From positions 36,666,257-36,730,256 of the forward strand of contig QCXZ01000003.1 of NCBI GenBank assembly GCA_025024175.1: 64,000 nucleotides of DNA. Direction: 5' to 3'. Source of the stretch: Rhyzopertha dominica. Its lineage: Eukaryota; Arthropoda; Insecta; Coleoptera; Bostrichidae. Each line of letters opens with the position of its first letter. The stretch's first letter is position 1. Positions 5,451 to 63,511 of this stretch are shown one piece after another. The translations under genes and the position numbers were made by a program. The notes under the pieces were generated by a model that saw only the letters and a list, made by a program, of their open reading frames with translations, was not told where the DNA came from and did not search any database.

Positions 5451-5586
5451 GGCGCTATTAGCTCAGTGATAGAGCGTTTGACTGGTATTCAGAAAGTCCC
5501 GAGTTCAAATCTCGGCCAAGACCAATATTTTTTCGTTTCATCTTATGCCTGCAAATCCCAAGAAAATATNANATATGCTCATTTAC
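5451..5586 (+). repeat. tRNA-derived SINE-like repeat, right copy with full tRNA-like head
   Basis: The head has a D arm (GCTC, loop, GAGC at 5461-5474), an anticodon stem TTTGA/TCAGA with loop CTGGTAT (anticodon position GGT at 5484-5486, Thr-like), and a T arm CCGAG/CTCGG. The acceptor arms do not pair, so it is not a working tRNA gene. It is followed by the same body as the left copy (TTTCATCTTATG, GCAAATCCCAAGAAAATAT). A/B-box-like promoter regions are therefore present. Two Ns fall in the body. Confidence 0.65.
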
Positions 5587-7907
5587 TATTATCCTTATAT
5601 ATTCTATTGAGTTATCACACTGCCAGNAAATTTTACTTTTCNACCTCTAAAAATCATAACATCATCTAAAAAGTTTAGAAACCTCGCCGTAAAATTTGTT
5701 TAATTCATTTCTCGACTTCGTCTGATTTGCAAAAGACGAAAGTCAAAATTAAAATACCTTATATGAAAAAAAATTAATCTACTAGTTCTATCTATGTTCA
5801 GCGAAGGCTCTAAATGATGATAATAACAACTAAAAAAATACAGGAACGAATCCTAGTAATATAATTCTACTAATATAAATATAATAGATAATAATAATAT
5901 AATAATATTGCCTGATAGATGAGCTGCAGCCAAAACAATTGCTGTTTCAAAATATATTAGATTTACTTTGGAGGCTGATAAAGTTAATGTAACAGACAGA
6001 AGTAAAGTACAAAGCGCCAGGATAAATAAAATAAATTCTTTGAAAGGTAGATAAATGGCATATAATTTGACAAGAGGAAAGATACAGCTTAAGTAAAGGT
6101 AACTTTTGATAAAAAAAAACAGTAGAAAAACCGTATTAGGTGAAGACGTATTTTTAATTGAAATGCCAAGGTGCTAATAATTGTTTTATTAATCAAGCAT
6201 TATAATACGTTTATTGAGATGTTGGGAAGTTATAACGTATTTTAGGCATTTTAAAGTAATTAAGCCTACACAAGACAAAAATTGAATATACACTTTCATT
6301 CATGAATATAGTTAATAACCAAAATAACTGGCTATAACTGAGCCTAAGTAATGACTCCTTTCAGTGTAAGAAGGAGAAACAGTGAAACTCCATTTGTCTC
6401 CTCGTTAAGGAGTTTAATACAGGGCAAAATATATAAAAATATAAAAATGCGATTAGTATGTTTAGTCTTTGGTGATATGATCGTGTATTACAACACAAAA
6501 GATAAAGTCACTTCGACCCACAACGCAGAATAATGTACATATGTAGTAAATCTGCATTTAAATCGATTTTTAATTTTACACCAGATTTCAAAACTCCTTT
6601 AGGTGTAAATAGCGGATGGTTCTTTTGCCAGAGGGTTCTTGTGATAAATTATCCAAGTTTTAATATTTAAGTGCAGGTATTGTTGGTTTTCTTAGCTAAC
6701 CGGCTGGCTCCACTGATGAGTTTCTTACAACAGTTTTTTTTTGTATTTCTGTGTGAATTAGTATTTTCCAAATTTAAACGATCTGCATGTTCAAATTTAA
6801 GTTCATAACGGGAAACGAAGTCCCTAAGTATATAAAGTATTACCGACTACTACAGAAATAATTTAAATACGATTGCTTTCATTGCAAGAATGCAAGTTTT
6901 GTAAGAAATATTGCAATATCTTGCATTATCCTTGCAAAAGGGTGTCTTGTCTTGATCCAAAAAAACGAGGTGAGAATTTTTAACCAGTCTTATCTTGCAT
7001 TTATTACATTAGATAAGACAAGACCAAGAGAAATGCAAATAATCTTATGAAACCCTAACATCAAAGTGATTTAAAATGGGGTTGGTCACATTTTTTATCA
7101 TTATTCATCTGGCAGCTGTCCTACTTGTCTATTGCTGTTTTTCTTTCATGTAGATAATATTTTGTTAGTTGTTTTGTTTTTACCTTTAAATTTAACATGT
7201 TATGCGTTCCTATTAAAAAACTAGGTAAACATTACCTTTGTTACCAGTTTGGTGAGCATATCATAACCGTATTGCTGAAATGTTTAAAATTTACTTATTC
7301 CTATGACTAGGTTTGTGGTTCTGCCTGGTACAAAACAGATTTTATTATGTCTCCCCCGCGATGAAGTAGTGGAATCTACTGTAGAGCCTCACAGTACTGC
7401 AGATTCAAAGTTCTAATGAAAACGTTTCTCTTTTCATAAGTATGCCATTGTATAGAAGAATCAATCTCTTCCTTTGTTTAACAGAACTTCTTACCCTCCG
7501 CGTGCGATAAACATCTAAATTAATCCACTCAGTTGTTCTCATTACAATTTATGGCCTGAGCCGTTCTCATTAAGTAGACAACACGATTTAATAGGAATGT
7601 AAATGAGCCCTTAATGTTACTGTTACGGTGCATATGCAGATTTTCTGTTGGTTATCGATCTCCAATGGGGTTGCCCTAGTTTTGTTTTCGATCCCGTCAT
7701 GTACGCGAGGCGCACATCATTAAATTTGACGAGCTATGAAGGACCCTCAAAGCGTCCAATTTACGACTAATGAATATTTTTTAGTTTATTGTTCCGTTTA
7801 CTGATGTGTCGTGTGGAAGGATTGGAACCTCTGATACCCTACTAAAATTATTCGATGATGTGTGAAATGTATGATACTCTAATTCGATATGGTTCCCGAT
7901 TTATAAC
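5587..7907. other. Non-coding; CAAG/CTTG-rich patch at 6870-7040
   Basis: No gene recognised. 6870-7040 is dense in TTGCAAGA, CTTGTCTTG and TAAGACAAGA motifs on both strands, like the 4.7-kb patch. Small ORFs here (for example 6351-6533) have no recognisable content. Confidence 0.35.
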
Positions 7908-9272
7908 ATGTACATAAATATAGGTATAATGTTATTGCACGACGGTTTCATCTACTTTGTGGAAATTATTCAGAGCGCTACAGTCACTTGTTTTCCATTA
8001 AGACAAAAAAAATCACTACAGAACACTCACAAGTTCGACAATTGGTTTAATAGGGATCTACGACAAATGCGAGATATTTTAAGATTATTGTACGATCTTA
8101 AAAAGAACCACTTAATCGAAGACACCCAATATCGTTCTTATAGAAAACTGTATCACCACGCGATTGCAACTGCCAGAAGGAAATGCCATGACGACCACAT
8201 AGCCAACGCATCTAATAAACAAACTGCCATATGGCAGGTGATCAAGTCAAAAAAGAAACAGTACACTCAACCACCTGAGGAACTAACTGCTGATAATTTT
8301 AATGAATACTTCACAAATATAGCATCTAATCTGATAGAAACTCTTCCTGAACCTGTCGTAGTCGCTGACCAATACATACCTACCATAAGCAATCTCCAAT
8401 TTATATTTAAGGTGTCGTATAACGAAGTCAGGGATTCTATTAACAAGTTGAAAAGATCGAAAAGCATGGATGCCTATGGCATGAACTCTGTTATCCTAAA
8501 AACATTAATAAATGTAATTGTCATTCCGTTGACTAAGTTATTTAATAACTGTATTCGTGAGAACACTTTTCCTTCTTCATTAAAAATGTCGAAAGTTATT
8601 CCCGTTTTCAAAAAGGGCGATAATCTAGATGTTAGCAACTATCGACCTATATCCTTAGTACCCACTGTTGCCAAAATATTCGAGTTGCTAATGAAAATTC
8701 AAATCAATGATTACTTCGAAGGCAATGAACTATATTCTAAGCAGCAATTCGGATTTCGCAGTAATTTGTCGACTACACTAGCAACCAATTCATTATGTGG
8801 TGAAATAATATCGGCTTTTGAAGCAAGGAAGTTTTCCTGTGCTTGCTGTCTCGATCTGTCTAAAGCTTTCGACTGTATTTCTTATGATATTTTGCTAAGT
8901 AAGCTACAACAGTATCTTTTTCATGAGAACAGCATTGCACTAATTGATTCTTACTTAAGGGGTAGACATCAGTTTGTATCATTAGGTAGCACAAAATCAG
9001 CAGGGCTTCAAATTCACTACGGTGTACGTCAAGGCTCAGTTCTTGGTCCGATACTGTTCCTAATTTATATTAATGATTTACCCCNTTCCGTTCCCAATAT
9101 AAAAAGTGTCATGTTTGCTGACGACACAACACTTCCGGATGTAAACTCCTCCTTACAGGATCTACAAAATAATATGGATGTTTCCGAATCCAGAGTACAC
9201 GAATGGTACATCAATAACAGGTTGTGTTTAAACAACGACAAAACACAAAAAAATAATATTTTCGTTACGTAA
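7908..9272 (+). CDS. LINE ORF2 part 1: linker and reverse transcriptase
   Basis: Family-like sequence starts around residue 15 (FVEIIQSATVTCFPL), the linker between endonuclease and RT. The RT blocks follow in order: VIPVFKKGDNLDVSNYRPIS (about 235-254), QQFGFRSNLSTT, LDLSKAFDCISYDILL (about 318-333), GVRQGSVLGPILFLIYINDLP, then catalytic VMFADDTT (about 400). An N at 9085 gives one unknown residue. The frame ends in a false stop at 9270-9272, just after an A-rich run at about 9241-9248. The next frame (9283-9900) continues the protein, so a single-base indel in the A-run is likely. It would copy element RNA at the target site. The upstream endonuclease is absent, so this copy is not autonomous. 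Confidence 0.8.
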   Translation: MYINIGIMLLHDGFIYFVEIIQSATVTCFPLRQKKSLQNTHKFDNWFNRDLRQMRDILRLLYDLKKNHLIEDTQYRSYRKLYHHAIATARRKCHDDHIANASNKQTAIWQVIKSKKKQYTQPPEELTADNFNEYFTNIASNLIETLPEPVVVADQYIPTISNLQFIFKVSYNEVRDSINKLKRSKSMDAYGMNSVILKTLINVIVIPLTKLFNNCIRENTFPSSLKMSKVIPVFKKGDNLDVSNYRPISLVPTVAKIFELLMKIQINDYFEGNELYSKQQFGFRSNLSTTLATNSLCGEIISAFEARKFSCACCLDLSKAFDCISYDILLSKLQQYLFHENSIALIDSYLRGRHQFVSLGSTKSAGLQIHYGVRQGSVLGPILFLIYINDLPXSVPNIKSVMFADDTTLPDVNSSLQDLQNNMDVSESRVHEWYINNRLCLNNDKTQKNNIFVT

Positions 9273-9950: not shown

Positions 9951-9980
9951 ATATTATTATTATTATTATTATTATTATTA
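9951..9980 (+). repeat. (ATT)n tail of the LINE
   Basis: About ten ATT units directly follow the LINE 3' UTR and mark its 3' end. Confidence 0.85.
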
Positions 9981-13308: not shown

Positions 13309-13343
<35 letters not shown>

Positions 13344-13345
13344 TA
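12591..13345. other. Non-coding; ends in an (ATA)n microsatellite at about 13310-13343
   Basis: No gene seen. The trinucleotide run abuts the left end of the hammerhead palindrome. Confidence 0.5.
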
Positions 13346-13383
13346 TTCGCTGGTTACATCATACCATTGCTCCATTGCTTTGG

Positions 13384-13391
13384 TATATAAG
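13384..13391 (+). promoter_or_regulatory. TATA-like box upstream of hammerhead (left arm)
   Basis: TATATAAG lies 18-26 bases before the outer hammerhead stem. The mirror copy is at 13764-13771 on the minus strand. A TATATAAG preceding TATGCCGTG also occurs at about 23305 in a diverged relative, so the arrangement recurs. Promoter function is inferred. Confidence 0.3.
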
Positions 13392-13409
13392 CAAAACCAG
13401 TTTTATGCC

Positions 13410-13501
13410 GTGCTGTCTACACTAGACCTAAACTGCACTGATGAGAGCTGTAATGACAGCGAAATAGATCTATCTGCAATTGGTTGAGGTGTAGACAGCA
13501 C
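13410..13501 (+). ncRNA. Type I hammerhead ribozyme, left copy
   Basis: The outer stem I is 13410-13422 with 13489-13501 (13 bp). The inner stem I is 13431-13437 with 13475-13481 (one C/A mismatch). The core CTGATGA is 13438-13444. Stem II is GCTGT/ACAGC (13447-13451, 13456-13460) with loop AATG. GAAA is 13461-13464. Stem III sequence TAGATCTA is palindromic, followed by U-C, with predicted cleavage after C13474. Two extra bases (GA, 13445-13446) sit between core and stem II and would probably weaken activity. Confidence 0.75.
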
Positions 13502-13517
13502 AGCATAGACATGCATT

Positions 13518-13603
<86 letters not shown>

Positions 13604-13655
13604 AATTATTAAAATAATAATAATTATTATTATTATTAAAATGCATGTCTATGCT

Positions 13656-13745
13656 GTGCTGTCTACACCTCAACCAACTGCAGATAGATCTATTTCGCTG
13701 TCATTACAGCTCATCAGTGCAGTTTAGGTCTAGTGTAGACAGCAC
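13656..13745 (-). ncRNA. Type I hammerhead ribozyme, right copy, canonical
   Basis: On the minus strand the order is: outer stem I 13733-13745 with 13656-13668 (13 bp, perfect); inner stem I AACTGCA/TGCAGTT (13718-13724 with 13674-13680, 7 bp); CTGATGA (13711-13717); stem II GCTGT/ACAGC with loop AATG directly joined; GAAA; palindromic TAGATCTA; then UC as the cleavage-site dinucleotide. Every invariant core base is present. The internal loop between the two stem I parts and the AATG loop of stem II could provide the usual tertiary contact. Confidence 0.85.
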
Positions 13746-13809
13746 GGCATAAAACTGGTTTTGCTTATATACCAAAGCAATGGAGCAATGGTATGATGTA
13801 ACCAGCGAA

Positions 13810-14369: not shown

Positions 14370-14416
14370 CTTTGCCGACGTTTCGAAGTCGTTTACTTCT
14401 TTATCAAGGCTGAAAG
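14370..14416 (-). ncRNA. Decayed hammerhead-like motif at the 3' end of a PLE copy
   Basis: On the minus strand: stem I CTTT, bulge CA, GCC pairing with GGC, AAAG; then TTGATAA where CUGANGA is expected (two core mismatches); stem II GAAGT/ACTTC; GAAA; and CGTC giving a GUC-type cleavage site. Position and fold fit the terminal hammerheads of PLEs. The core changes should inactivate it. Confidence 0.5.
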
Positions 14417-15137
14417 TGTAGCACCAAATTAGCATTCACAATAACATAAAACACTTAACAGATATCCGACATTAAAAACTTTAGCAACATATAATATCAC
14501 AGTCATATTAGTCAATACGTTAGTAAACAATCAATAAAATCGTAACCTACCTCAAATACCACTACACTCAGGAATACATCGATAGTTTATTAATTTCTTT
14601 AAAAACTGAAATCAGACCGCCCATTCATTGGCGTACTCGGCAACACAAGCACTGTATCCAATATTTTTCGATACCGATGTACTCTACAAAGAGTAGTGGT
14701 CACATTGTCAAACTATGATCTCTAATAAACTGTATTAGAACTTAGAACAAACTAATAACAAGCGTAAGAAACTAGTCCACATAAATTAAACATAAAGATT
14801 TTTTAAAATTATTATTATTGTTGTTGTTATTTTTTTTTATAGTTATGTCCATCTTCAAAATGATGTGTAGCTAACGCGGTTTTATCTCTTTTGTCGGAGT
14901 TGATCACATTACAATCATATTTGTGTTGCCTGATTCTATTGCACAAGTATTGTTTTGATTATCCTACGTAGCACTTATCATAATTTATACAGTCAATCTT
15001 GTAAACAACATTAGATGATTATTCATCAGGAACTTTATCTTTAAGTTTGGAATATAGACATTTCTTAATAGAATTATAATTATAAGGTACTAAATTAAAA
15101 TTAGTGTTTTTTATATAAACCTCGTACATATGGAAAC
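14417..15137 (-). pseudogene. Penelope-like element A, inverted copy (GIY-YIG end and 3' UTR)
   Basis: This is the reverse complement of the plus copy at 15188-16825. It covers the end of the GIY-YIG endonuclease (from CTCGTACATATGG at 15121 down to the CATCTTCAAAATGATG region at about 14865) and then 3' UTR to 14524 and beyond. Compared with the plus copy it has lost roughly 220 bases spanning the C-terminal coding end. It runs on to the hammerhead-like motif at 14370, which the other arm lacks. Confidence 0.65.
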
Positions 15138-15187
15138 ATAAACAAATTTCTTCGCTAATACAGAGGAACTATTATCATTATCATTAA

Positions 15188-15659
15188 GTTTCCATATGAA
15201 CGAGGTTTATATCAAAAAATATCACGATGTTTTGCTAACACTAATTGTAATTTAGTACCTTATAATTATAATTCTATTAAGAAATGTCTATATTCCAAAC
15301 TTAAAGATAAAGTACCTGATGAACAATCATCTAATGATGTTTACAAGATTGACTGTATAAATTGTGATAAGTGCTATGTAGGACAAACAAAACAATACTT
15401 GTGCAATAGAGTCAGGCAACTCAAATATGATTGTAATGTGATCAACTCCGACAAAAGAGATAAAACCGCGTTAGCTATACATCATTTTGAAGATGATCAT
15501 AACTTCGATTTTAATAGAGTTACTATTATGGATAGGGAGCCTAATAATTTAAAACGAAATATAAGTGAAATGATTTGTATACGGAAAAACAACACCATCA
15601 ATCTTAGAAATGATACTAAGGATTTAGGTATGGTATACAATAGTTTACTTAATAAATAA
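15188..15659 (+). pseudogene. Penelope-like element A, GIY-YIG endonuclease end
   Basis: The frame is open from about 15222 to the TAA at 15657. It encodes the GIY-YIG nuclease of PLEs: VYKIDCINCDKCYVGQTKQ holds the paired tyrosines (VYKI, CYVGQT), followed by the arginine-bearing LCNRVRQ helix, TALAIHHFEDDHNFDF, and ISEMICIRKNNTINLRNDT with the conserved glutamate and asparagine near the C-terminus. The domain nicks target DNA for PLE insertion. The RT half is absent: the copy starts at the inverted-repeat junction, 50 bp from its mirror image. The ATG at 15399 is internal. It has no stop and is better preserved than the mirror copy. Confidence 0.75.
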
Positions 15660-15838
15660 CAGTTTCAAATTAAAGATTATTCTTTAATAACAATAATAAT
15701 AATAATTAAAAAAAATTATGTTTAATTTATGTTGACTAGTTTTTTTACGCTTGTTATTAGTTTGTTCTAACAGTCTATTAGTGATCATAGTTTGACAATC
15801 TGACCACTACTCTTTGTAAAGTAGTACATCGGTATCGA
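15660..15838 (+). repeat. PLE A 3' UTR, plus arm, first part
   Basis: Matches the mirror arm (reverse complement of about 14668-14830), including the AACTAGTC and AGTAGTGGTC segments. It stops at GGTATCGA where an insertion begins. Confidence 0.6.
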
Positions 15839-16686
15839 GAAACCGCTGCAAATTGAATCAATACTTCCACATCCAATTGTCAAAATGACATTTACGTTTT
15901 TTATTTCTTATACTGTACGATTAGTAATCAGATTTTGAGCATTTTGTCTCTCAACACATTTTTTCTAAGACAAACGGTCCTTGTGATATTAGCAAAAATA
16001 TATTAATTTTAAAATCGATTACAAGAGTGTTTTCTGATCAGAAATTTGACTTTCTATGTAATACCAAAATCTAAAAAAAAATCGTACGAGCAGGGACCAA
16101 AATAGGTTTTTTGCAAATATTTCGAAAATAGCAAAATTTTGAATAAACTTTCTAAGACACTTTTTGTGAGAAATTTTATTTCCTATCTGATGGCATTTTA
16201 ATTTTTTGAATATATTAAATATATTTGGAGATATTTAGGAGAAACCGTTTTCTTTAAGTGTCGCTTATTTGCTAATATCTTCTAAACAGTTTGCTGCACC
16301 GAAAATTTATAAGAGCGAATAATACTCGCAGTTATACTACTAATCACATACTAAAACGAAAAAAATATAAAATAATAAAAATTTGCAAAAAGGGTAGTTA
16401 CCCCCAATTTCGCGCCCTTCCCGATAACCTACTTACCCCACAAACAATAGGGCGCTTTGGGTAGTTGAGATTTATACGTTTGCCAAATTTCAAGTTCATA
16501 TATTAAGTCTTTCGAAAGTTATCGTGTATACAAACAAAACCACAGGCACACAGACAAGAAATTTTTTTTGCTCAAATTTTGTATTTTTCGTTTTCGACCA
16601 TTTTAAAGCGAATGAGCAAATAAAAATTTTTGAAAATTTTTTTCGCGATACAATAATTCCCATCCGTTGGAAGGGGAAGTAAAATG
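15839..16686. other. Unidentified ~848-bp block inserted in the PLE inverted repeat
   Basis: The plus arm is continuous with its mirror up to about 15838 and resumes at TTGGATACAG (16687). The DNA between has no counterpart in the mirror arm. It has no long ORF, no clear terminal inverted repeats and no obvious target duplication. It contains GC-rich GGGTAGTTACCCCC and ACCCCACAAACAATAGGGCGC patches and a stretch (CGAAAGTTATCGTGT near 16510, CACACAGACAAG) that recalls the 3' regions of some transposons. Confidence 0.5.
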
Positions 16687-16825
16687 TTGGATACAGTCCT
16701 TGTGTTGCCGAGTACGCCGATGAATAGGCGGTCTGATTTCAGTTTTTAAAGAAATTAATAAACTATCGATGTATTCCTGAGTGTAGTGGTATTGGAGGTA
16801 GGTTACGATTTTATTGATTGTTTAT
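16687..16825 (+). repeat. PLE A 3' UTR, plus arm, second part
   Basis: Reverse complement of 14524-14660 with few changes. It ends abruptly at GATTGTTTAT, short of the hammerhead-like motif present in the other arm. Confidence 0.65.
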
Positions 16826-18489
16826 TATACGCGTGCTGTACTGCAGATCAAAGAAATACAGTTTACATACAATAATAAACCATAATAATAGAACTACTCA
16901 CAAAGGTAGAAGAATTGGTACAATCTGTACTATAAAAAATACGCGTTCGAGGAAATAATTTTCTATCGCTATATTCAAACACCGACAGCAACTACTTGCA
17001 CTTAAAATATTTTACCTCAACTATTTTACTGAACCACTTTACCACGACAGTGGTAAGTATTATAAAAAAGTAACTTCTACAATAAAGTAACGCATACACT
17101 GTTACACTGGTAGTGCTCAGACACATGCTTGTATTTAAAAAAATTTGAAGTGGATATTCCCTAATATCGACATTATTATTAGGAAGAGAAACCAACCCAA
17201 TATCTACACGACCTTTTTTATAACAATGGGCAGCGGTAATTCTGTCTTGACGGCTCACAACAGGTTTTGCGTTGTATTTATATGCCATCGGAACACCCTG
17301 TATACCAAATTGAGTGGGACTCACGGAGTATTGGGTTGAATAGACGTTAAGAATAATCATGTTAGGGGAAATGTTCAAACTTGGACAATATTTCAGTCAA
17401 GTATGACGCAAATTTGCCGCTTGAACGGTAACGGGGAACAACGATGACGTGAATTGATAGCTTTCATTGTGCACGTTGACAGAAATAATCAATACGGAAT
17501 TTATCTTCCACCATAAGTAGCTACTCTGCCGCAACACGTTGAATAGGTGCTCGTAACTGTTCCATTTACAGCTGAGAGTCGACTTTAAATTATGCAAGCA
17601 CGTGGCGTTACGCGTGTGTCGGAAAAGCAGCCTTTTCTGTACTATACTAGGTATTAAAGATTTACGTTTTGATAATGGATGGATCTTAAAGAGGGTACGC
17701 GAATGAAGTTACTTATACCCTTTGGTGTGTACTATTTATCTATTGAATTACAACAAGGACATCTGAGAAGCATCTTCTCGCTATTTATAATTGCTACTCC
17801 TATTGTGTTCGATCCCAGTATACTTATTTTAAAAATTGTGGAAGGAAATACCATAAAATTCGGAGAGTGAAAATTTATACCATTATACCATTAAAAGAAC
17901 TACATCATACTATACTACATACTTAGTATTTCGGAAGTATTTATTATTAAAAGAAATATTTACATTTTTATGTGTCCCCACTTCATACATTTTAATAAAA
18001 GCATAGATAAACATGAGCAAACTACAAATAGTGTTGCCCCATAGACAATAATTTTTCCGATTTTTCTTGTCCCTTCTCAGCCTCTATTAGCAATATAAAA
18101 ATAAATATAAAATAGATATTCTGTTATCTTAAAGTATTGAACAGTTTGAGTACACTATATAAAAATGAATCTACAAAAAAAAACATTATGCAAAATGATG
18201 TTTACAAATGTAAAAAAGTTAATGATGGCTTATTAAAGCTGATCGGTTTACCTCAAACGATTCCGAATGTTTTCACAAGCCTCTTCAGCTCATTGTTTAA
18301 CCGTTTTCTTATAATTACACCTGCTTTGAAAACAGATTCCAAGGGGACGCTGCTAGCCTGTACGCTAATATACCTCTCGCCATTTTGATGATTAATCCAC
18401 CTTGTTAATAAATCTTCGTCTTTGTCGACTCTTGGTGACATCAGTGATTTGCACCCCTTTTATGAACTTTATGATAATTACTTTTACTT
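16826..18489. other. Non-coding; one trypsin-like ORF fragment candidate at 16992-17378
   Basis: The 128-codon minus-strand ORF at 16992-17378 contains RQDRITAAHCYKKG, which resembles the ITAAHC histidine block of S1 serine proteases, but no other protease motif follows. The ACACCCTGTA at about 17294 resembles a mariner terminal repeat and is read through by the same frame, which argues against a real gene. The rest is featureless. Confidence 0.3.
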
Positions 18490-18495
18490 TTACTT

Positions 18496-18580
18496 AAAAA
18501 ATGCATGCTTATGCTATGCTGTTTGCACCGCAACCGACTACAGATATTATTACATCATTAGAGTTCATCAGTGTAAAGCT
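18496..18580 (-). repeat. Decayed copy of the hammerhead-bearing repeat
   Basis: Shares AAAATGCATG, CTTATGCTATGCTGT and CACCGCAACC with the 13.6-kb and 33.6-kb copies, and keeps CTGATGA (18565-18571, minus). Stem II no longer pairs and GAAA is lost, so it is an inactive relic. Confidence 0.6.
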
Positions 18581-21205
18581 AGGAACTGCTTTATAGCCAT
18601 TTTTCCATATCTCAACCTCAACTATGCGATTCTATTTTGTGTATTTTGTGTTTGCGTTCTAGAACATTATAGGTTTACAGAGTGTACCTAAAAATCTTTC
18701 ACATTATGTTTCAACACTTTGTTTACAGGTTGGTTGCAGCTGTCGTGTCCCGTTCAACTCTTTTATCAAATGATCTTATTTTTTAAATTTTGTCAGCTAT
18801 CATATTGAAGCTGGTAACAACCAATAGAATTTGTATTTTCCACTGAAAAGCAGCAACTATGATTTAGATTGCCTAAAGTAAGTAAAAAACGCATTTCTTT
18901 CAACTTTCCATCTTCCGTCTTCCTCTAATCGCAATGGCATTTTGATTTATTTGTCCACTGTTGTTCCGCAGTACTTATTTTTAGCGCTAATTTGCACTTA
19001 ATTTATGGAAAAAAGGTGCTATTGTTAGCGCTTTGTCCGACTGATGTTACTTAATTGTCTATCACATGGAATGGATCAACGAAACGGGCTTGTTGATGGT
19101 TCCTTAGATAGGTCTTGGCCTAACGACGATCAACATGTAGGTATTTGGTCTCCTGGAACTTTGCCCCCCCTCGGCCCATCATTCAGTTTTCTTTTAATAT
19201 CTCTGTATTTTGCTTGCTACAAGAAATGTTTCTTCTATGCTTATAATAAAATTAAATACATATCGACAATATGTACAAGGAAAATGCGCTTTCTTTCCCT
19301 GTAAAGCCTTTCATACTTGTTGAATCTACCTCATCTTCACCAGTCTTCATAGCTACTGTCAACGCAGTATCCGCTACGAATCCAAAGGACTATAACTAAT
19401 ACTTATCTTTGACTTCAATAGTGGTTTTTAATAAATTTAAAGTGTCTGGACACCGAAGTTATGGGAAGACAGAAAATGATCAATAGAGAGTATTTCTTGT
19501 CAAGCAAAAAATGTAGATCGCTCTTAGGAGGAATCCGTACGTGTCCCTACTACCCCTTACAGCATTATTTCCCCCACTGCAAGAAAACTGACGTCACTGG
19601 CTCTATACACTCAAAGTAGACAGTTTCGGTCGTGCAGCCCGAGCAGTGGAATTTATTGGAACTGTACCGTGCTAATTACAGTTGACAGTTAGCGGAAGTG
19701 GTAGGAGAACGAGAATTTGCCTAAATTCCATGTAATGCTATGCAGGGTTTGATGTCACTCAAATAATAGTTATATAAACATCTTAAAATTTTGCCAAGAG
19801 GTAAATAAAGAATGAAACTCCAGGGACTACTGAATAAAAATTAAAAACGTGGCCTCCTTTCCTTGTAAAAAGCATGCAAACTTGGGTATTCTCTTCATAT
19901 TATTCGTCTTTTAAGTAGATTTGTAATTAAAATAAAGCTATTATTTAAAAATCAGTTCAGCAGACCCAGCAGTTTAAACCCTTTTCTTTATAATGAGCCA
20001 AAGATATAAACAAAATATTGAAAAATAAGGCCAGTACGATTAATTCCGCAGAGCTTGTTTTCGGACCCCCTCTTAAATTGAAATAGTGTTGGAATCAAAG
20101 ATCTTGAATTCTAATAGATACAAACATGCCTATATGAATACATTAACGACTCTGATCCGTGTTCCAACATATACAACGTGCGATTTTCTATCTTACTTAT
20201 TTCACGACACAATATATAATACAAAATAACTGGAAATTATCTGTAAATGAAAAGCTTAGGATTCCACCATTATTTGACAGATGCATGAAGGTCATTTGAG
20301 GGTGCAGGAGACCGATAGAGCAAACACAATTTAATGTCAGAAAAAGAAATAAGACGGTTTTTTCTCGACTTTATATGTTGAAACAGACTAATGCAAGCGT
20401 ATTGGTGTCTATCCAAGTCTATGGTTGGAACAAGTTATGGTGACCTTCAAATGACGTAAGCCAACCAAGTGAGATTGCTTCATTTTAGCTAGCGATGAAC
20501 ATAATTTACATTTCGCAGTTTTTTTATTGTTTGACCCTGTCTGCTTAACAATATGGAACATTAATTTATTCCAGTCTTTCTGGGATTAACAAAAATACAT
20601 TGTAACCAAAATCTATATCATATTTTCACAAATTTAGATCTGTGTAGGCCACCAAGCCAACAGCATCAATGTTGCGGTTTTATGTGCCGTAAAAGAGCGG
20701 TGCTTATCACACATTAATCGGGAGTAAATCGTTCACTTTGTTTCCAGTATGCTCTGTAGTATAAGCAAATATAATTACTCCTAGTTAAGTTTTGCCAGCC
20801 TGGTGCTAGGTGAGTGTATAATCACTAAAGTTACTGCTAAGTTATTACTGGTACTAATATTTTAGGAATCAAGGTGTTAAAACGTACATCTGCAAGTAAC
20901 AGCTTCCAATAAAATCTACTACACAAGACTTCATTTTTTATCATTACACGAATCCCCCAATAACCCCTTAGGTCGAAACGCACACCGTTTCGCTATAACG
21001 TGTAGTAACTAAGCCATTTACAATTTCACAATTTCTCTTTGTTATTACATGTACTCATTTCATGTGTATTTACATCAGCAGTTAATGCACTTTTCCTTAA
21101 TATAAGTCACTGCAGTAGGTGTGTAAATACGTTCAAGTCATTATTGAAGTTTTTGGTACTAGGTAAGTAGGTAGACAAAGAGAAGCGAACGAAATGCATT
21201 ATAAC
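18581..21205. other. Non-coding, nothing recognised
   Basis: Short chance ORFs only (for example 19044-19304). No repeat structure noticed. Confidence 0.4.
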
Positions 21206-23244: not shown

Positions 23245-23543
23245 CTAGATGGCATGGTGTCATCCACATTCTAATTCTTGCATACACATCGCCTATCTTG
23301 GCGTATATAAGGGAAGCCAGATCTATGCCGTGTTGTCCGCGTAAGGACCATTGCTGTGCTGTTAGTTGTTAGTATTATGCCTAAGAACTGCACTCTTTGC
23401 AGAAATCGTCGTTGGGAACGTCTGCCGCTTTTTTAAACGCCCACAGCATGGTAGGCTACCGTTCAGATGACGAGATGAGAAGATGATACCGTATTGCCAC
23501 TAGATGACATGGTGTCATCCACATTCTAATTCTCGCATAGATA
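23245..23543. repeat. ~42-bp direct repeats flanking a TATA-containing unit
   Basis: ACTAGATGGCATGGTGTCAT and following bases at 23245-23286 recur at about 23502-23543 with few changes. The 215 bp between contain GTATATAAG followed by TATGCCGTG.TGTC, which matches the promoter-proximal part of the hammerhead repeat. No hammerhead core follows. Confidence 0.5.
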
Positions 23544-33592: not shown

Positions 33593-33690
33593 AAAAATGC
33601 ATGTCTATGTTATGCGGTCTGTACCGCAACCAACTACAGATAGATCTATTTCGCTGTCATTACAGCTCATCAGTATAATATATAATAATA
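33593..33690 (-). repeat. Hammerhead-bearing repeat, truncated copy
   Basis: Shares AAAATGCATGTCTATG, ACCGCAACCAACTACAGATA and the core with the palindrome copies. It is truncated on the upstream side, where (TATTAT)n begins immediately before the core. Confidence 0.75.
33635..33677 (-). ncRNA. Type I hammerhead ribozyme core, dispersed copy
   Basis: On the minus strand: CTGATGA (33667-33673), stem II GCTGT/ACAGC with loop AATG, GAAA, palindromic TAGATCTA, then UC. Stem I is short (TATA/TGTA, one G-U), and the outer 13-bp helix has lost its upstream strand. All core positions are intact. Confidence 0.75.
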
Positions 33691-34865: not shown

Positions 34866-35137
34866 ATTGGCAGCAACACGGCAGATATCGTCAGCTGCAA
34901 GTCCACGTGCAGTGAAGTGAAATCGGAAAAACACGCAACACGAAATCATCACGAAACCACGAAGCATCCACGACGAAACTCCTCGGTGAGTCCTTTCCAA
35001 TTTCATTTTCCCGATTAACAAGCACGTCTCGATCTCGTAAGTTTTCATTGTTTATAATTTATTTCGCGCGTATCGTAATCGCGGGTGCGAGCTTTGTTGA
35101 CTTAACGCGTAAACGTAAAATCACATTCATACGTTTT

Positions 35138-36880
35138 ATGGAACAAACAGATCACGACGAAATCAAAAAACTAAAATTTGATCGCGGCATAATAAAAGCA
35201 AAATTAACCAGACTCGAAACATTTCTAAACATAATCGAAAATCGAGAAAACATTGAGCAAATAAGAACTCGTTTGGAAGCAATTGAACAAGAATTCAAAA
35301 ATTTTGATATTATACAGACCCGTCTGGAATACCTTGATGAGAGCGAAGTGGTTGAAAGGGATTCATTAGAAAACAAATTTTACGAAGTTATCGCGGAAGC
35401 AAAAAGATGCGTTCAAGTATCAGAAGCCAAACTTGGCAGCACAGCGCTCACAGCAACACCGACAACATCGAACGTTCAAACGGTTCCAGTAACGGAAAAC
35501 AAATTCACGAAATTACCCGATATCGAACTACCAAACTTTCACGGTACGTATGAAACATGGATGAGTTTTTTTGACATTTTTAAATCGGTTGTTCACAAAC
35601 GTACGGATCTTTCCGACATCCAAAAATTTCTATATTTAAAAGCGTGTTGTAAAGACGATGCGTTACGATTGATAGATTCGATAAAAGTTACGTCCGAAAA
35701 TTACACAACGGCAGTAGAACTGTTACGAAAACGTTTTGAGAATAAACGAGCGATTATTAACCACCACGTCAACGGTCTGTTATTCAAGTTACCAGATGTT
35801 TCTAAAGAATCGCCGGGTTCTTTGCGAAAATTGGTAGATACAGTAAACCAGCATGTAAAATCGTTAGCAAAGCTAGAGTTACCCACAGATCATTGGGATG
35901 CTTTACTAATTCCTTTAATAGTTAAAAAACTCGATTTATTTACCCGTCGTGAGTGGGAAAGTAAGCAAACGAGCAACGATCTCCCGAAATTATCGCAATT
36001 AATGGAATTTCTAACCAAAAAATGTGTCACGTTAGAAGTTTTGTTCTCGGAAATAAATGTGAAGTCGCATTCTAGTAATGTAAAAGGACATAACGTGTCA
36101 AATAAGCAGTTTAGTAGCAAAATTTCGACGGTTAAATCATTGCAGCAATCATATGCCTTAACGAATACATATATTTGTCCAACCTGTCAGGGAAAACACT
36201 TTATTTATCAATGTCCCGAATTTGAAAAACGACCACTAGACGAAAAATACAAGGAAGTGCGTAAACTTAAGTTATGTAGCAATTGTTTGCGCTCCGGACA
36301 TGGCGTACAAGTATGCAAATCGCGGCATTGTAAGAAATGTAACTTAAAACATAACACGCTGTTACATGAAGACAAAAATCGGTCAACTGATCAGAGCATA
36401 AACAGCGCAAATAACTCTGCATCAACTTCCGAATCTTCAACAGATATCGCTACACATTCGACAAATTTTCATCTTTTAAATACAAAAATTCACGAATCAG
36501 AACAAATCGCATTGTCACACGCCAGTATTCAGCTAAATCAAGTTTTGTTGTCAACAGCCACGATTTTAATCAAAGATCGTGGAGGAAGATATCACGAATG
36601 CACTGCTTTATTAGACGGTGGAAGTCAATCTAATTTGATTTCAAAAAGGTTATGCCAAAAACTCGACTTAGACCTAGAAGATTTCTTGTTACCGTTAGCA
36701 GGAATAAACAAAAACGTAACACACATAACAAACAAAGTTTCAGTAACAATAAAATCTCGTTGTACACCATATCAGGTTCAATTATCGTGTTTAGTATTAC
36801 AGGTCATAACAGAGAACTTACCTCTCATAGGTTTTGACAAAAAAATGCCTTCAATATCCCATAGATATCCCATTAGCTGA
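35138..36880 (+). CDS. Bel/Pao Gag and start of protease
   Basis: I chose the ATG at 35138 (MEQTDHDEIKKLKFD) over the one at 35048, because the upstream part looks like leader. A coiled-coil-like charged N-terminus leads into the DUF1759 Gag domain (KLPDIELPNFHGTYETW, FFDIFKSVVH). Zinc knuckles follow (CPTCQGKHFIYQCP and CSNCLRSGHGVQVC, then CKSRHCKKC), and then an aspartic-protease-type block ALLDGGSQSNLIS (DUF1758), with DGG in the DTG/DSG position. Gag packages element RNA and the protease matures the polyprotein. The frame ends prematurely in the DUF1758 region at 36880. The downstream protein resumes in another frame beginning before that stop, next to a seven-A run at about 36840-36846. 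Confidence 0.85.
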   Translation: MEQTDHDEIKKLKFDRGIIKAKLTRLETFLNIIENRENIEQIRTRLEAIEQEFKNFDIIQTRLEYLDESEVVERDSLENKFYEVIAEAKRCVQVSEAKLGSTALTATPTTSNVQTVPVTENKFTKLPDIELPNFHGTYETWMSFFDIFKSVVHKRTDLSDIQKFLYLKACCKDDALRLIDSIKVTSENYTTAVELLRKRFENKRAIINHHVNGLLFKLPDVSKESPGSLRKLVDTVNQHVKSLAKLELPTDHWDALLIPLIVKKLDLFTRREWESKQTSNDLPKLSQLMEFLTKKCVTLEVLFSEINVKSHSSNVKGHNVSNKQFSSKISTVKSLQQSYALTNTYICPTCQGKHFIYQCPEFEKRPLDEKYKEVRKLKLCSNCLRSGHGVQVCKSRHCKKCNLKHNTLLHEDKNRSTDQSINSANNSASTSESSTDIATHSTNFHLLNTKIHESEQIALSHASIQLNQVLLSTATILIKDRGGRYHECTALLDGGSQSNLISKRLCQKLDLDLEDFLLPLAGINKNVTHITNKVSVTIKSRCTPYQVQLSCLVLQVITENLPLIGFDKKMPSISHRYPIS

Positions 36881-39455
36881 TGACAGTTTTAATGAACCCA
36901 AGTCTATCGACATACTATTAGGTGCTGAAATATTCTATGATCTTTTAGAAGGCGAAAAAATCATTTTAGGAAAAAATAACCCTACTCTACACAAAACAAA
37001 ACTCGGATGGATATTTACAGGAGTTATTAAACTTCACGGTAATTCGCGACACTCTAAAACAGTATGCAACTTAACGACAAAAATTAGCCACGAATCGTTA
37101 AATCAAACTATGCAGCGCTTTTGGCAATTAGAGGAAATCCCTCAAAATCACATACTAAATCAAGAAGAACAATTATGCGAAAATTATTTTCAGCAAACCA
37201 CGACCCGTTCTGAAGATGGTAAATTTGTAGTTCGATTGCCATTCAAAGAAAACTTTCAAGAATTACTCGGAGAATCACAGTCTTGTTGTATCCAAAGATT
37301 TCGCGGTTTAGAAAATCGGTTATCGAACAATGAAAGTTTAAAAAATGATTATCATAACTTCATGCAAGAATACGAAGCTTTACATCACATGTCTTCAAAA
37401 TTTGATTTATACTCGTTTTCACCGGAAGAAAAAGAATCATACTTTTTACCCCATCACGCAGTTATTAAACATAGTAGCATGACCACTAAATGCAGAGTTG
37501 TATTTGATGGTTCAGCCAGAACTTCAACAGGCTATTCATTAAATGATCTTTTAGCAGTAGGCCCTCTCGTACAAGACGACTTATTTTCTATTGTCACGCG
37601 AATGCGATTAAGAAAATATGTATTAAACGCAGACATAAAAATGATGTACAGACAAATATGGCTACATCCAAACGACCGCAAATATCAGTTGATTTTGTGG
37701 AGATTCAATTCAGATCAACCAATTAAAATATACGAACTAAACACAGTAACGTATGGACATTCCAGTTCTCCATATTTAGCCACAAGGTGTCTCAAACATC
37801 TCGCAGAAATTAATGCAAACACGTATCCACAAACCAGTCACATTCTGGAAAAATCATTCTACATGGACGATCTGCTAACTAGTGTAGATTCAATTCCGGA
37901 AGCGTTAGAAGTATACCACGAAATAACAAGCGTACTGAATACCGCAGGTTTTCAATTACGTAAATGGTCTTCAAACAGTCGCGAAATTTTGAATCATATT
38001 GTTAACGACAACGCAAATCTCGAAGGTGAACAAAATCTTATTCTTATTCACGATCGTAAGGAACTAAAAACTTTAGGCCTTATGTGGAATTCGGAAGACG
38101 ATACTTTAAATTACACAATCAAATTCATAGACAATCCTACAGTAATCACGAAACGGACAGTTTTATCGGCAATATCGCAATTATTCGACCCGTTAGGATT
38201 AGTCGGAGCAGCGGTAATAAGAGCGAAAATTCTTATGCAACAAATTTGGAAAAGTTCTCTCGATTGGGACGATCTATTAACAGGAGAATTGTTACTGCAA
38301 TGGGAAACATTTTCTTCTCAGTTACACGCTTTAAATTCAGTAAAAATTCCACGTCACGTAGTATGCGAAAATCCTGTACAAGTAGAATTAGTCGGATTCT
38401 GCGACGCTTCGGAAAAGGCGTACGGAGTATGTATTTATCTCGTATCAACAGACACTAACGGTCAAAAATATAGTAACTTGTTGTGTGCTAAATCCAAAGT
38501 CGCGCCACTCAAAAAAATAACGTTACCTCGTTTAGAATTACTAGCAGCAGTTCTGTTAGCTCGTTTAATGACAACTATTCGAAATACAATTGATATTACC
38601 ATTGATGCAACTAAACTTTATTCAGATTCAACAATTGTTTTATCATGGCTTCGAATAGACCCGAGCACATTAAAAACATTCGTCGCGAATCGTGTTACAT
38701 TAATATTAGAATTAACACATATCGAAGAATGGAATCATGTCAAGAGTGAGTTTAACGCAGCGGATATTATATCACGAGGTATAAATCCTTCAGAATTGTT
38801 TGATTGCAATATCTGGTGGCACGGACCAGAATTTCTGATTCAAATTCACGAAGCAAACGACTTTATCATGGAAGAGTTTTCAACTGAAAGTTTACCAGAA
38901 GTCAAAATTCATAGCGTCTCGTTAGCAACATCCAAAACAGACAATTTTCTAAGCAATCTGATCACAAAGTTCTCGACCTTAAACAAACTACAGCGCGTAG
39001 TAGCTTACGTTTGTCGTTTTACACATCGATTAATTTCCAAACAATCAATTACCTCCGCAATTCTGAATGTAGATGAATTAGAACGAGCACTTTTAGTGTT
39101 AATCAAATTTGTTCAACGCGAAGCTTTTAGCTCCGAAATTTCCGCATTACAACAATCACGTAACATTAAAAATCATAGCAAAATAATTAATCTAAACCCG
39201 TTCATAGACGAATCTGGCATTCTGAGAGTAGGTGGCAGACTTGCAAATTCAGACCTTCCTTATGACCAGAAACATCCCATAATTTTGCCCTATAAACATA
39301 AACTGACTTCATTAATTATACAGCACGAACACTTGAAGCATTTACACGCAGGAGTTCAAAATCTTCTATCTATATTGCGTTTAAGGTATTGGCCAATTAA
39401 GGGAAAAACATGGTCAAATCCGTTACACGTTCTTGCATTAGGTGTTATCGAGTAA
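36834..39455 (+). CDS. Bel/Pao reverse transcriptase, RNase H and integrase zinc domain
   Basis: It begins with the end of the DUF1758 region (IDILLGAEIFYDLL, KTKLGWIFTG). The Pao-type RT follows: HHAVIKHSSMTTKCRVVFDG, LNADIKMMYRQIWLHP, TYGHSSSPYLATRCL and the catalytic FYMDDLLTSV (about residue 343). RNase H follows with VGFCDASEKAYGV, LPRLELLAAVLLARL and KLYSDSTIVLSWL. The frame ends in the integrase N-terminal zinc region, with HEHLKHLHAGVQNLL giving the histidine pair. The ATG is not a true start; the protein is a continuation of Gag-Pro. The frame ends falsely at 39455 just after a five-A run near 39404, and the integrase resumes in another frame. About 870 codons are otherwise clean. 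Confidence 0.9.
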   Translation: MTKKCLQYPIDIPLADDSFNEPKSIDILLGAEIFYDLLEGEKIILGKNNPTLHKTKLGWIFTGVIKLHGNSRHSKTVCNLTTKISHESLNQTMQRFWQLEEIPQNHILNQEEQLCENYFQQTTTRSEDGKFVVRLPFKENFQELLGESQSCCIQRFRGLENRLSNNESLKNDYHNFMQEYEALHHMSSKFDLYSFSPEEKESYFLPHHAVIKHSSMTTKCRVVFDGSARTSTGYSLNDLLAVGPLVQDDLFSIVTRMRLRKYVLNADIKMMYRQIWLHPNDRKYQLILWRFNSDQPIKIYELNTVTYGHSSSPYLATRCLKHLAEINANTYPQTSHILEKSFYMDDLLTSVDSIPEALEVYHEITSVLNTAGFQLRKWSSNSREILNHIVNDNANLEGEQNLILIHDRKELKTLGLMWNSEDDTLNYTIKFIDNPTVITKRTVLSAISQLFDPLGLVGAAVIRAKILMQQIWKSSLDWDDLLTGELLLQWETFSSQLHALNSVKIPRHVVCENPVQVELVGFCDASEKAYGVCIYLVSTDTNGQKYSNLLCAKSKVAPLKKITLPRLELLAAVLLARLMTTIRNTIDITIDATKLYSDSTIVLSWLRIDPSTLKTFVANRVTLILELTHIEEWNHVKSEFNAADIISRGINPSELFDCNIWWHGPEFLIQIHEANDFIMEEFSTESLPEVKIHSVSLATSKTDNFLSNLITKFSTLNKLQRVVAYVCRFTHRLISKQSITSAILNVDELERALLVLIKFVQREAFSSEISALQQSRNIKNHSKIINLNPFIDESGILRVGGRLANSDLPYDQKHPIILPYKHKLTSLIIQHEHLKHLHAGVQNLLSILRLRYWPIKGKTWSNPLHVLALGVIE

Positions 39456-40033
39456 ACCCAAAACCAGCAACCCATATCATGGGAAATTTTCCACGAAATC
39501 GAGTTACCCCGGGTAGACCTTTTTTGAGATGCGGTATCGATTATGCAGGTCCTATTCTAGTGAAAGACGGATCATTAAGAACGAGCAAGGTACGTAAGTC
39601 ATATATATTAATTTTTGTCTGTTTCGCTGTGCGAGCTGTGCATATCGAACTTGTATTAGATTTAACCACAGATGGTTTTTTAAACGCACTCGAAAGGTTC
39701 ATATCCAGACGTGGTAAACCAACTGACATTTTTACCGACAACGGCTTGAATTTCGTCGGAGCCAGTAATCATTTTACTGAATTGTTCAAGTTGCTCTCTG
39801 ATAACAATCACAATCAAATCGTTTCTCAGTTTCTTGCAAAAGATATGATCAAATGGCATTTCATCCCTCCGAAGTCACCCCACATTGGCGATTTGTGGGA
39901 AGCAATGGTTAAGTGGACCAAGTATCATTTACGTCGAACTTTAGGTAATGCAACGGTTACATACGATGAAATGTATACTATCCTTACGCAGATTGAGGCA
40001 TGCTTATTCACGCCCATTAACGGCCTTGTCTGA
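39410..40033 (+). CDS. Bel/Pao integrase, zinc domain end and catalytic core
   Basis: It starts with the CIRCYR cysteine pair completing the HHCC zinc domain. Then comes the rve core: CGIDYAGPILVK (first aspartate), VRAVHIELVLDLTTDGFLNA, FTDNGLNFVGA (second aspartate) and PPKSPHIGDLWEAMVKWTK (glutamate; GD where GG is more usual). The core joins element ends to target DNA and fits the 5-bp duplication seen. The frame ends at 40033 in the QIEACLxSRPL block, where bases are missing relative to the family pattern. The rest continues in another frame. Confidence 0.85.
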   Translation: MVKSVTRSCIRCYRVNPKPATHIMGNFPRNRVTPGRPFLRCGIDYAGPILVKDGSLRTSKVRKSYILIFVCFAVRAVHIELVLDLTTDGFLNALERFISRRGKPTDIFTDNGLNFVGASNHFTELFKLLSDNNHNQIVSQFLAKDMIKWHFIPPKSPHIGDLWEAMVKWTKYHLRRTLGNATVTYDEMYTILTQIEACLFTPINGLV

Positions 40034-62650: not shown

Positions 62651-63511
62651 AGACGAGTTTCAATTTATGCTGTCCCAAGGAATATGAATACCATCAAATA
62701 ACCCCAGGACCAATCCCTTACATATGATAAAAAAGAAAGACGGTACGGCGTCCAGTAGGCACTTACCGCGCTTTAAACAAAGTAACCGATCGCTATCCAA
62801 TTCTCCATATTCAGGTTGTGTGTATTCCCTGCATGGAAAACCAATTTTTAGTGCGATAGATTTGATTAAAGCAATCGATCAAGTTAAAGTAGGACCTTCA
62901 TCTATTCCTAAAACCGTAATTACTCCTTTTGGTCTATACGAATTTTCAAAAACGCAATTTGGATTTAGACATGCTGCCCAAACCTTTCAAAGATTTCTGC
63001 ACATTATAATTCGCGATTTGGATTTCTATTTTCCTATGTTGATGACGTGCTTGTCACTTTCTTTAGTTTTGAAGAGCATCACCAACATTTCCAATTACTA
63101 TTTAGTCGCCTTTACAAATATGGTGTTACCAAAAACAAAAAAAAATCAGCTTAACTGTGACAGTTACGAAGTTTTCTCCTCAGAAACTGAACCTCTATCC
63201 GACAAAGTGCACATAATTTTAAATTACCCTAAACCAAAAACCGTTCAGGACTTGCGTCATTTTTTAGGAATGATAGATTTCTATGGAGATATATTCCCAA
63301 CGCCACAATAAATCAGATGTGGAAAATGCATTTGATGATTGTAAACAGGATCTTGCAAACGTCGCCTTGTTAGTGCATCCGTCATCTAAAGCATCCATCT
63401 CTCTCACTGTCGATGCATCAGATCGCGTAATAGGCGCTGTGTTTGACAGCAATTGTGGAAACCTGTTTTTATTCCAAGAAACTGTGCCCAATCCAGCAAA
63501 GATATAGTACA
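62651..63511 (+). pseudogene. Gypsy RT and RNase H fossil
   Basis: HMIKKKDGT (62722-62750) is the KKDG block before RT motif 2. Then VYSLHGKPIFSAIDLIKAID holds the first catalytic aspartate and TPFGLYEFSKTQFGFRHAAQTFQR is present. The YVDD catalytic block (about 63037) is in another frame because of an indel. The motif after DGT (R.CGDYR) is corrupted. NYPKPKTVQDLRHFLGMIDF and DCKQDLANVALLVHPSS then VDASDRVIGAVF (RNase H start) follow, with a gap. Non-functional. Confidence 0.75.

Follow-up and report, generated by a model that had tools for sequence, protein, structure and literature searches.

Within a window of 64,000 nucleotides from the genome of Rhyzopertha dominica—the whole stretch of DNA analyzed here—the minus strand at positions 13656 to 13745 can be read as a self-cleaving RNA motif. 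A first, sequence-only reading had recognized it as a canonical type I hammerhead ribozyme in a short dispersed repeat. This raises the question of whether the motif is a genuine hammerhead and, if so, what kind of element carries it. The motif is a real type I hammerhead that was probably once active, and the repeat that hosts it is SINE-like. The first reading had passed over the inverted partner of the repeat with its damaged ribozyme (the left arm), the tails, and two additional copies, as well as the Penelope-like element (PLE) and LINE-like remnants nearby.

Architecture of the hammerhead

The motif contains CUGANGA, GAAA, and UH, and its three stems follow the type I arrangement, in which stem I is the open one. 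Its limits coincide exactly with the ends of the outer stem I, so that the initial assignment is correct to the base. Stem I consists of an outer and an inner part, whose 5′ strands are separated by a loop strand of 8 nt (Table 1). Stem III alone comprises 3 bp and is left open in the centroid structure. It is built on a perfect palindrome of 10 nt, ATAGATCTAT, which is overlapped by the GAAA and could give 10 bp in a dimer. The palindromic stem III and the possible action as a dimer had both been proposed beforehand and are retained here. Cleavage is predicted after C17 (13683), that is, between 13683 and 13682.

Table 1 Features of the hammerhead element and its surroundings in the window.
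Feature	Position	Strand	Basis
(TAA)10 and TTA, immediately 5′ of unit L; either a microsatellite at the target or the tail of an earlier unit since lost	13313–13345	+	
Unit L, inverted partner of unit R	13346–13519	+	alignment with unit R
(TAA)n/(TTA)n junction of units L and R, 118 nt, read as joined 3′ tails	13520–13637		
Unit R, 172 nt, 42% GC: 5′ hairpin (13806–13754), hammerhead, and 3′ end GACATGCATTTT	13638–13809	−	
Intact type I hammerhead of the right arm	13656–13745	−	descriptor, fold, base-by-base mapping; sub-threshold Rfam HH9
Outer stem I, 13 bp	13745–13733 with 13668–13656	−	
Inner stem I, 7 bp	13724–13718 with 13682–13676	−	
CTGATGA	13717–13711	−	
Stem II, 5 bp, with AATG tetraloop	13710–13697	−	
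GAAA to UC	13696–13683	−	
Palindrome within stem III	13693–13684		
Minimal-hammerhead–like motif GCCTTGATAAAGAAGTAAACGACTTCGAAACGTC, 5-bp stem II, CGAAACGTC; beyond the left PLE endonuclease piece	14377–14410	−	by eye
T18, shorter decayed copy: ATGCATTTT, then TTAAGTAAAAGTAAAAG	18496–18581	−	blastn; nhmmer limits
Fragment GTATATAAG...ATGCCGTG with likeness to the 5′ region of the unit, no hammerhead core, then unrelated sequence	23300–23357	+	blastn, nhmmer
T33, shorter copy: complete core, stem II, and stem III; ATGCATTTT, then TATTTATG	33593–33680	−	blastn, descriptor; nhmmer limits

A strict descriptor was defined as CTGANGA, a stem II of at least 4 bp, GAA and next to it the A-U closing pair, a stem III of at least 2 bp, and a stem I of at least 5 bp, with G-U allowed. 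It matches twice in the 64-kb window, at 13717 and 33673, both on the minus strand, and not once in 100 first-order Markov sequences of window length searched on both strands. Hence, the earlier judgment that a chance occurrence is very unlikely is borne out. The 100-nt segment from 13751 to 13652 folds with −47.8 kcal/mol (z −7.15), and none of 200 shuffles is equally stable. The minimum-energy fold keeps stems I and II, but the core is partly paired, and the presumed internal loop of stem I pairs in part as well (GACC with GGUU). When only the helices of the sequence-only reading and stem III are formed, the energy is −34.7 compared with a minimum of −48.6 kcal/mol, both values referring to secondary structure alone. 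In the fold of the whole unit, stem I gains seven further pairs beyond a C·A mismatch.

The covariance-model check, which had been proposed along with the motif, gives a divided answer. At the gathering threshold, no hammerhead family of Rfam matches in the whole window. At relaxed thresholds, Hammerhead_HH9, the one hammerhead family then listed, matches at 13663–13733 with 29 bits against a gathering value of 52, corresponding to an E-value of 3.2e-5 over 551 bases and of 0.0037 over the whole window; the left arm (unit L) reaches 17 bits (E 0.23). Herein, the curated threshold is a criterion of the database and not part of the definition of a type I hammerhead.

That the likeness to a hammerhead is incidental, with the locus being a fold-back or MITE-type DNA element or a microRNA-type hairpin, is highly improbable. 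The long perfect stem would suit such an origin, as would sub-threshold microRNA models, the best of which is MIR841 (58 bits with a bias of 45.1, gathering 200). However, every core position is present together with three correctly placed stems, a combination that occurs in none of the 100 random windows, and the core is also complete in the second, diverged copy T33. The microRNA candidates MIR841, mir-4796, mir-214, mir-987, and mir-592 are rejected since all of them stay under their gathering thresholds, and MIR841 lies mostly over the AT repeat.

Copies, tails, and the inverted pair

Searching the 64 kb with the unit by blastn yields four copies distributed over three loci, which agrees with the description as a short dispersed repeat. 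This is the independent find, as the nhmmer profile was made from these four copies and matches them by construction. At all three loci, the copies end with the same 3′ sequence, ATGCATTTT, and continue into different A/T tails. Their 5′ ends differ: units L and R begin with TTCGC, and T33 and T18 begin within ~6 nt of CTGATGA. The SINE-like combination of a fixed 3′ end, a simple tail, and variable 5′ ends is thus seen across the three loci. Head-to-tail tandem units occur at none of them. Target-site duplications above chance are likewise absent from all three loci, with random pairs scoring as well in 60% (T18), 27% (T33), and 71% (L/R pair) of cases. As with SINEs, the common 3′ end, the simple tails, the varying 5′ ends, and the absence of tandem copies from the window are consistent with a tailed RNA having been copied by target priming.

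No tRNA-like part is found in the element: ARAGORN calls no tRNA in the window, and the sole Rfam tRNA match, at 5459–5515, lies outside the element. This match is a partial tRNA-like sequence on the plus strand (44.6 bits, positions 8–63 of 71) and may be a pseudogene or a SINE head.

Units L and R are arranged tail to tail and are identical in 172 of 175 aligned columns (98%), with the outer 100 nt showing no difference. Unit L differs by a 2-nt insertion at the start of stem II and by one substitution, A for G in the 3′ strand of the inner stem I, which leads to a C·A mismatch. Because both changes fall inside its ribozyme, the hammerhead of unit L is damaged and probably inactive. The 5′ boundary of unit R is set by its inverted partner only, and since L may have arisen from R or R from L, their common start does not prove the 5′ end of the element. 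The 5′ hairpin of the unit contains TATATAAG, to which no claim is attached.

For the inverted pair, it has to be asked whether it represents two insertions at all. An assembly or sequencing artifact such as a fold-back read, or an inverted duplication that arose locally at the DNA level via the TAA/TTA repeat, would leave a single genuine insertion. Both are compatible with the identity of the arms over their outer 100 nt and with the TAA/TTA palindrome in the center. However, the arms differ by the 2-nt indel and the substitution, and the outer flanks are unlike each other, with (TAA)10 beyond L and nonrepeated sequence beyond R. An origin of this kind is considered rather unlikely. Three of the four perfect (TAA/TTA)6+ arrays of the window adjoin or join the pair. 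Two routes to the pair were rejected. Had both sides of a single break served for priming, the tails would lie outward and the 5′ ends in the center, whereas here the tails are central; and a simple nested insertion into the tail of a first unit does not fit, as the far side is without a leftover tail of the right sense. The titles and abstract beginnings searched, which cover the literature in part, contain no inverted tail-to-tail hammerhead units, and such pairs may be published.

The two shorter copies lack the 5′ strand of the outer stem I. The 5′ flank of T33 is (TTA)n-like. In T18, the stretch between stem II and stem III is gone, and with it GAAA is missing. In both copies, the bases preceding CTGATGA pair with a changed 3′ strand, TGTAGT, over 6 (T33) and 5 (T18) contiguous positions with G-U allowed; as a baseline, 1.0% of the 6-mers of the window reach 6 and 2.0% reach at least 5, whereby the pairing was noticed first and tested after. 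This pairing may indicate that the inner stem I was maintained by compensatory change. A G-C pair of the inner stem I in unit R is A-U in T33 and T18, where, however, the 5′ strand may be target flank. Between L and R, the changes are damaging only, and none is compensatory.

The fragment at 23300–23357 resembles the unit over 23303–23337 by blastn (83%, E 5.8e-5) and is also found by nhmmer (E 8.2e-5). Exact-pattern scans of viral and genome contig collections and a blastn search of a phage collection give no match; these are nonanimal collections, in which absence means little.

Neighboring transposable-element remnants

Remnants of transposable elements form a mosaic throughout the window. 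At 7875–9269, a reverse-transcriptase ORF is followed by an ORF reaching to 9900 and by a (TTA)n run at 9954–9980. This run, a (TTA)9 that lies shortly past the ORFs and an AATAAA, is probably the own tail of that LINE. BEL/Pao-type ORFs lie within 34916–40030, and a sub-threshold RVT_1 match is found at 62688–63308.

At a distance of ~1 kb from the ribozyme unit, two inverted pieces around 14839–15656 encode the GIY-YIG endonuclease end of a PLE-like element. A query of 166 aa from this endonuclease has eight relatives at E ≤1e-3 among 13 candidates, the best-scoring one being 52% identical. GIY-YIG was matched by both of the two relatives that were scanned, P0003 lying above and P0001 below the Pfam cut-off. 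The piece itself gives a weak Pfam match below the cut-off, and a PDB sequence search with it returns only two weak matches to unrelated proteins. Within 14521–16827, the two pieces are 5′-truncated and meet head to head near 15170, an arrangement that would result when copying is primed by both strands of a single break. In the right arm, an interruption of ~840 bp (15843–16680) lies ahead of the outer 147-bp repeats (14521–14667 and 16681–16827, 96%).

The motif at 14410–14377 on the minus strand is taken to be a decayed minimal hammerhead by its likeness to PLE hammerheads; a relaxed minimal-hammerhead regular expression run over the window missed it. Two other matches to CGAAACGTC in the window were not taken for hammerheads. 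On the same strand, a reading from 14317 to 13958 with one stop, ending ~150 bp upstream of unit R, is presumably the C-terminal part of a LINE-like reverse transcriptase. Pfam gives no support for it, and a protein search scored neither of two candidates. The earlier statement that the host repeat is not part of any recognizable coding element hence needs qualifying by the PLE remnant and by the putative LINE-like reading.

These neighbors make it necessary to consider that the unit belongs to a larger coding retroelement, either as the 3′ UTR of a LINE or as part of a pseudo-LTR belonging to the PLE nearby. The putative LINE-like reading stands directly upstream of unit R, and the PLE remnant is accompanied by the putative decayed hammerhead. 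However, no LINE reading was recognized by eye before unit L or T18, and the sequence before T33 is, as we assume, a LINE-like fragment apparently of another family. The reading at R is the one left unsupported by protein search and Pfam. In a PLE pseudo-LTR, a minimal hammerhead would adjoin the PLE ORF; PLE hammerheads are described as minimal, whereas the hammerhead of unit R is not, and it lies ~1 kb from the remnant. Altogether, membership in a coding element appears improbable.

Relation to known hammerhead elements and proposed cycle

Metazoan non-LTR retrozymes are described in passages of PMC7229834 as units of 170–400 nt arranged in tandem, from dimers to many, with target-site duplications of >4 bp when present and with circular RNAs thought to be used as templates. 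They are reported from crustaceans, insects, and a tick in the relevant parts of PMC7229834, PMC7761336, and PMC4918200. According to a passage of PMC7761336, they could be regarded as a novel SINE family and seem to be without promoters. The element described here resembles them in its type I hammerhead, its short noncoding unit (172 nt plus tail, within 170–400 nt, and with 42% GC below 50%), its self-paired RNA, and the presence of PLEs in the same genome. In the RNA of unit R, 66% of the bases are paired with the hammerhead stems kept, be it linear or circular, compared with "above 70%" in the corresponding passage of PMC4918200. In contrast to the tandem retrozymes, monomers, shorter copies, and one inverted pair are found here, with a simple-repeat tail and no target-site duplication detected. 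Because the tandem feature is not seen in the window, we do not class the element with the retrozymes, although its mode of action may be the same.

A standard metazoan retrozyme, whose tandem units reside elsewhere in the genome and give rise to circular RNAs, with the copies seen here being single-unit or broken products, comes close to an even chance. This reading overlaps with the preferred one, so that the likelihoods of the two are not exclusive. The canonical hammerhead, the size and GC content within the ranges found in PMC7229834, and the largely self-paired RNA argue for it, and the (TAA)10 before L may be what is left of the tail of an earlier unit, which would be in line with a circle being copied past its own start. 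Against it stand the missing head-to-tail units at the three loci and the fixed 3′ end with its tail, which fits linear target-primed copying equally.

Other hammerhead elements share single features with the unit. By description in part of PMC8490949, the schistosome SMalpha and Sjalpha repeats are SINE-like elements with a type I hammerhead; unlike the element here, in which none is found, they carry tRNA sequence (as given in a passage of PMC4918200). PLE ribozymes are described in passages of PMC7229834, PMC7761336, and PMC11167929 as minimal, being without helix III or loop contacts. With PLE and Terminon hammerheads, the unit shares the weak stem III, the possible action as a dimer, and a PLE remnant nearby, but it differs in its stem I of 13 and 7 bp and its 3-bp stem III. 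The likeness to PLE and retrozyme hammerheads that had been pointed out is reasonable, the hammerhead at 13656–13745 having a fuller form than the published PLE ribozymes. In hammerheads with a palindromic loop III, likened by their description in part of PMC3088659, stem and loop III are fully pairable as well, here as a 10-bp stem in a dimer. The pDo500 repeat of Dolichopoda cave crickets, as presented in part of PMC2837043, is another hammerhead in an arthropod repeat, albeit in satellite DNA, whereas the copies here are dispersed.

Taken together, the element is probably a SINE-like, nonautonomous non-LTR retroelement of ~172 nt plus an A/T-rich tail, which carries a functional-looking type I hammerhead and is mobilized in trans by a PLE or a LINE from a circular or linear template. 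In such a cycle, the unit would be transcribed, and the hammerhead would cleave at the predicted site, alone or as a dimer via the palindromic stem III. The RNA would then be re-ligated, possibly into a circle, or would escape cleavage, and a PLE or LINE reverse transcriptase would copy it via the tail, with target priming at A/T-rich sites of the TAA/TTA type. Copies left behind in this way would be monomeric, fixed at the 3′ end and variable at the 5′ end, and the inverted pair would represent either two near-identical copies joined by their tails or an inverted duplication of local origin. In vitro, a PLE protein cuts both strands of AT-rich DNA with a preference for ATT sites, as reported in part of PMC11167929. 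Because TAA/TTA runs would be suitable insertion sites for such an enzyme, we infer a PLE to be the preferred helper. Hammerhead cleavage is not needed for PLE insertion in vitro (same part of PMC11167929). All four copies span the cleavage site, and thus none of them shows that cleavage took place.

What counts against the SINE-like reading is that the window contains no tandem copy, target-site duplication, tRNA-like part, or Rfam gathering match for it, that its RNA is 66% paired, and that three loci only are at hand. A stricter version, in which a PLE or LINE copies a linear, tailed SINE-like RNA at microsatellites of TAA/TTA with no tandem-to-circle cycle, and in which the ribozyme serves single-unit end processing or ligation and not the cutting of multimers, is regarded as unlikely.

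Hammerheads in animal retroelements are already known. The copies of the present SINE-like element, however, look like single-unit SINE insertions along with one inverted pair and not like the tandem repeats described earlier—a copy structure that is unusual. With one intact and one damaged ribozyme, the inverted pair is a natural wild-type/mutant pair for cleavage. For retrozymes, circular RNAs were shown in coral, mussel, and salamander, with the helper enzyme and the copying step being described as open in the respective part of PMC7229834. If a family combines a fixed 3′ end with simple-repeat tails and single-unit insertions, its insertion structure would by itself separate the models of a circular and of a linear tailed template.
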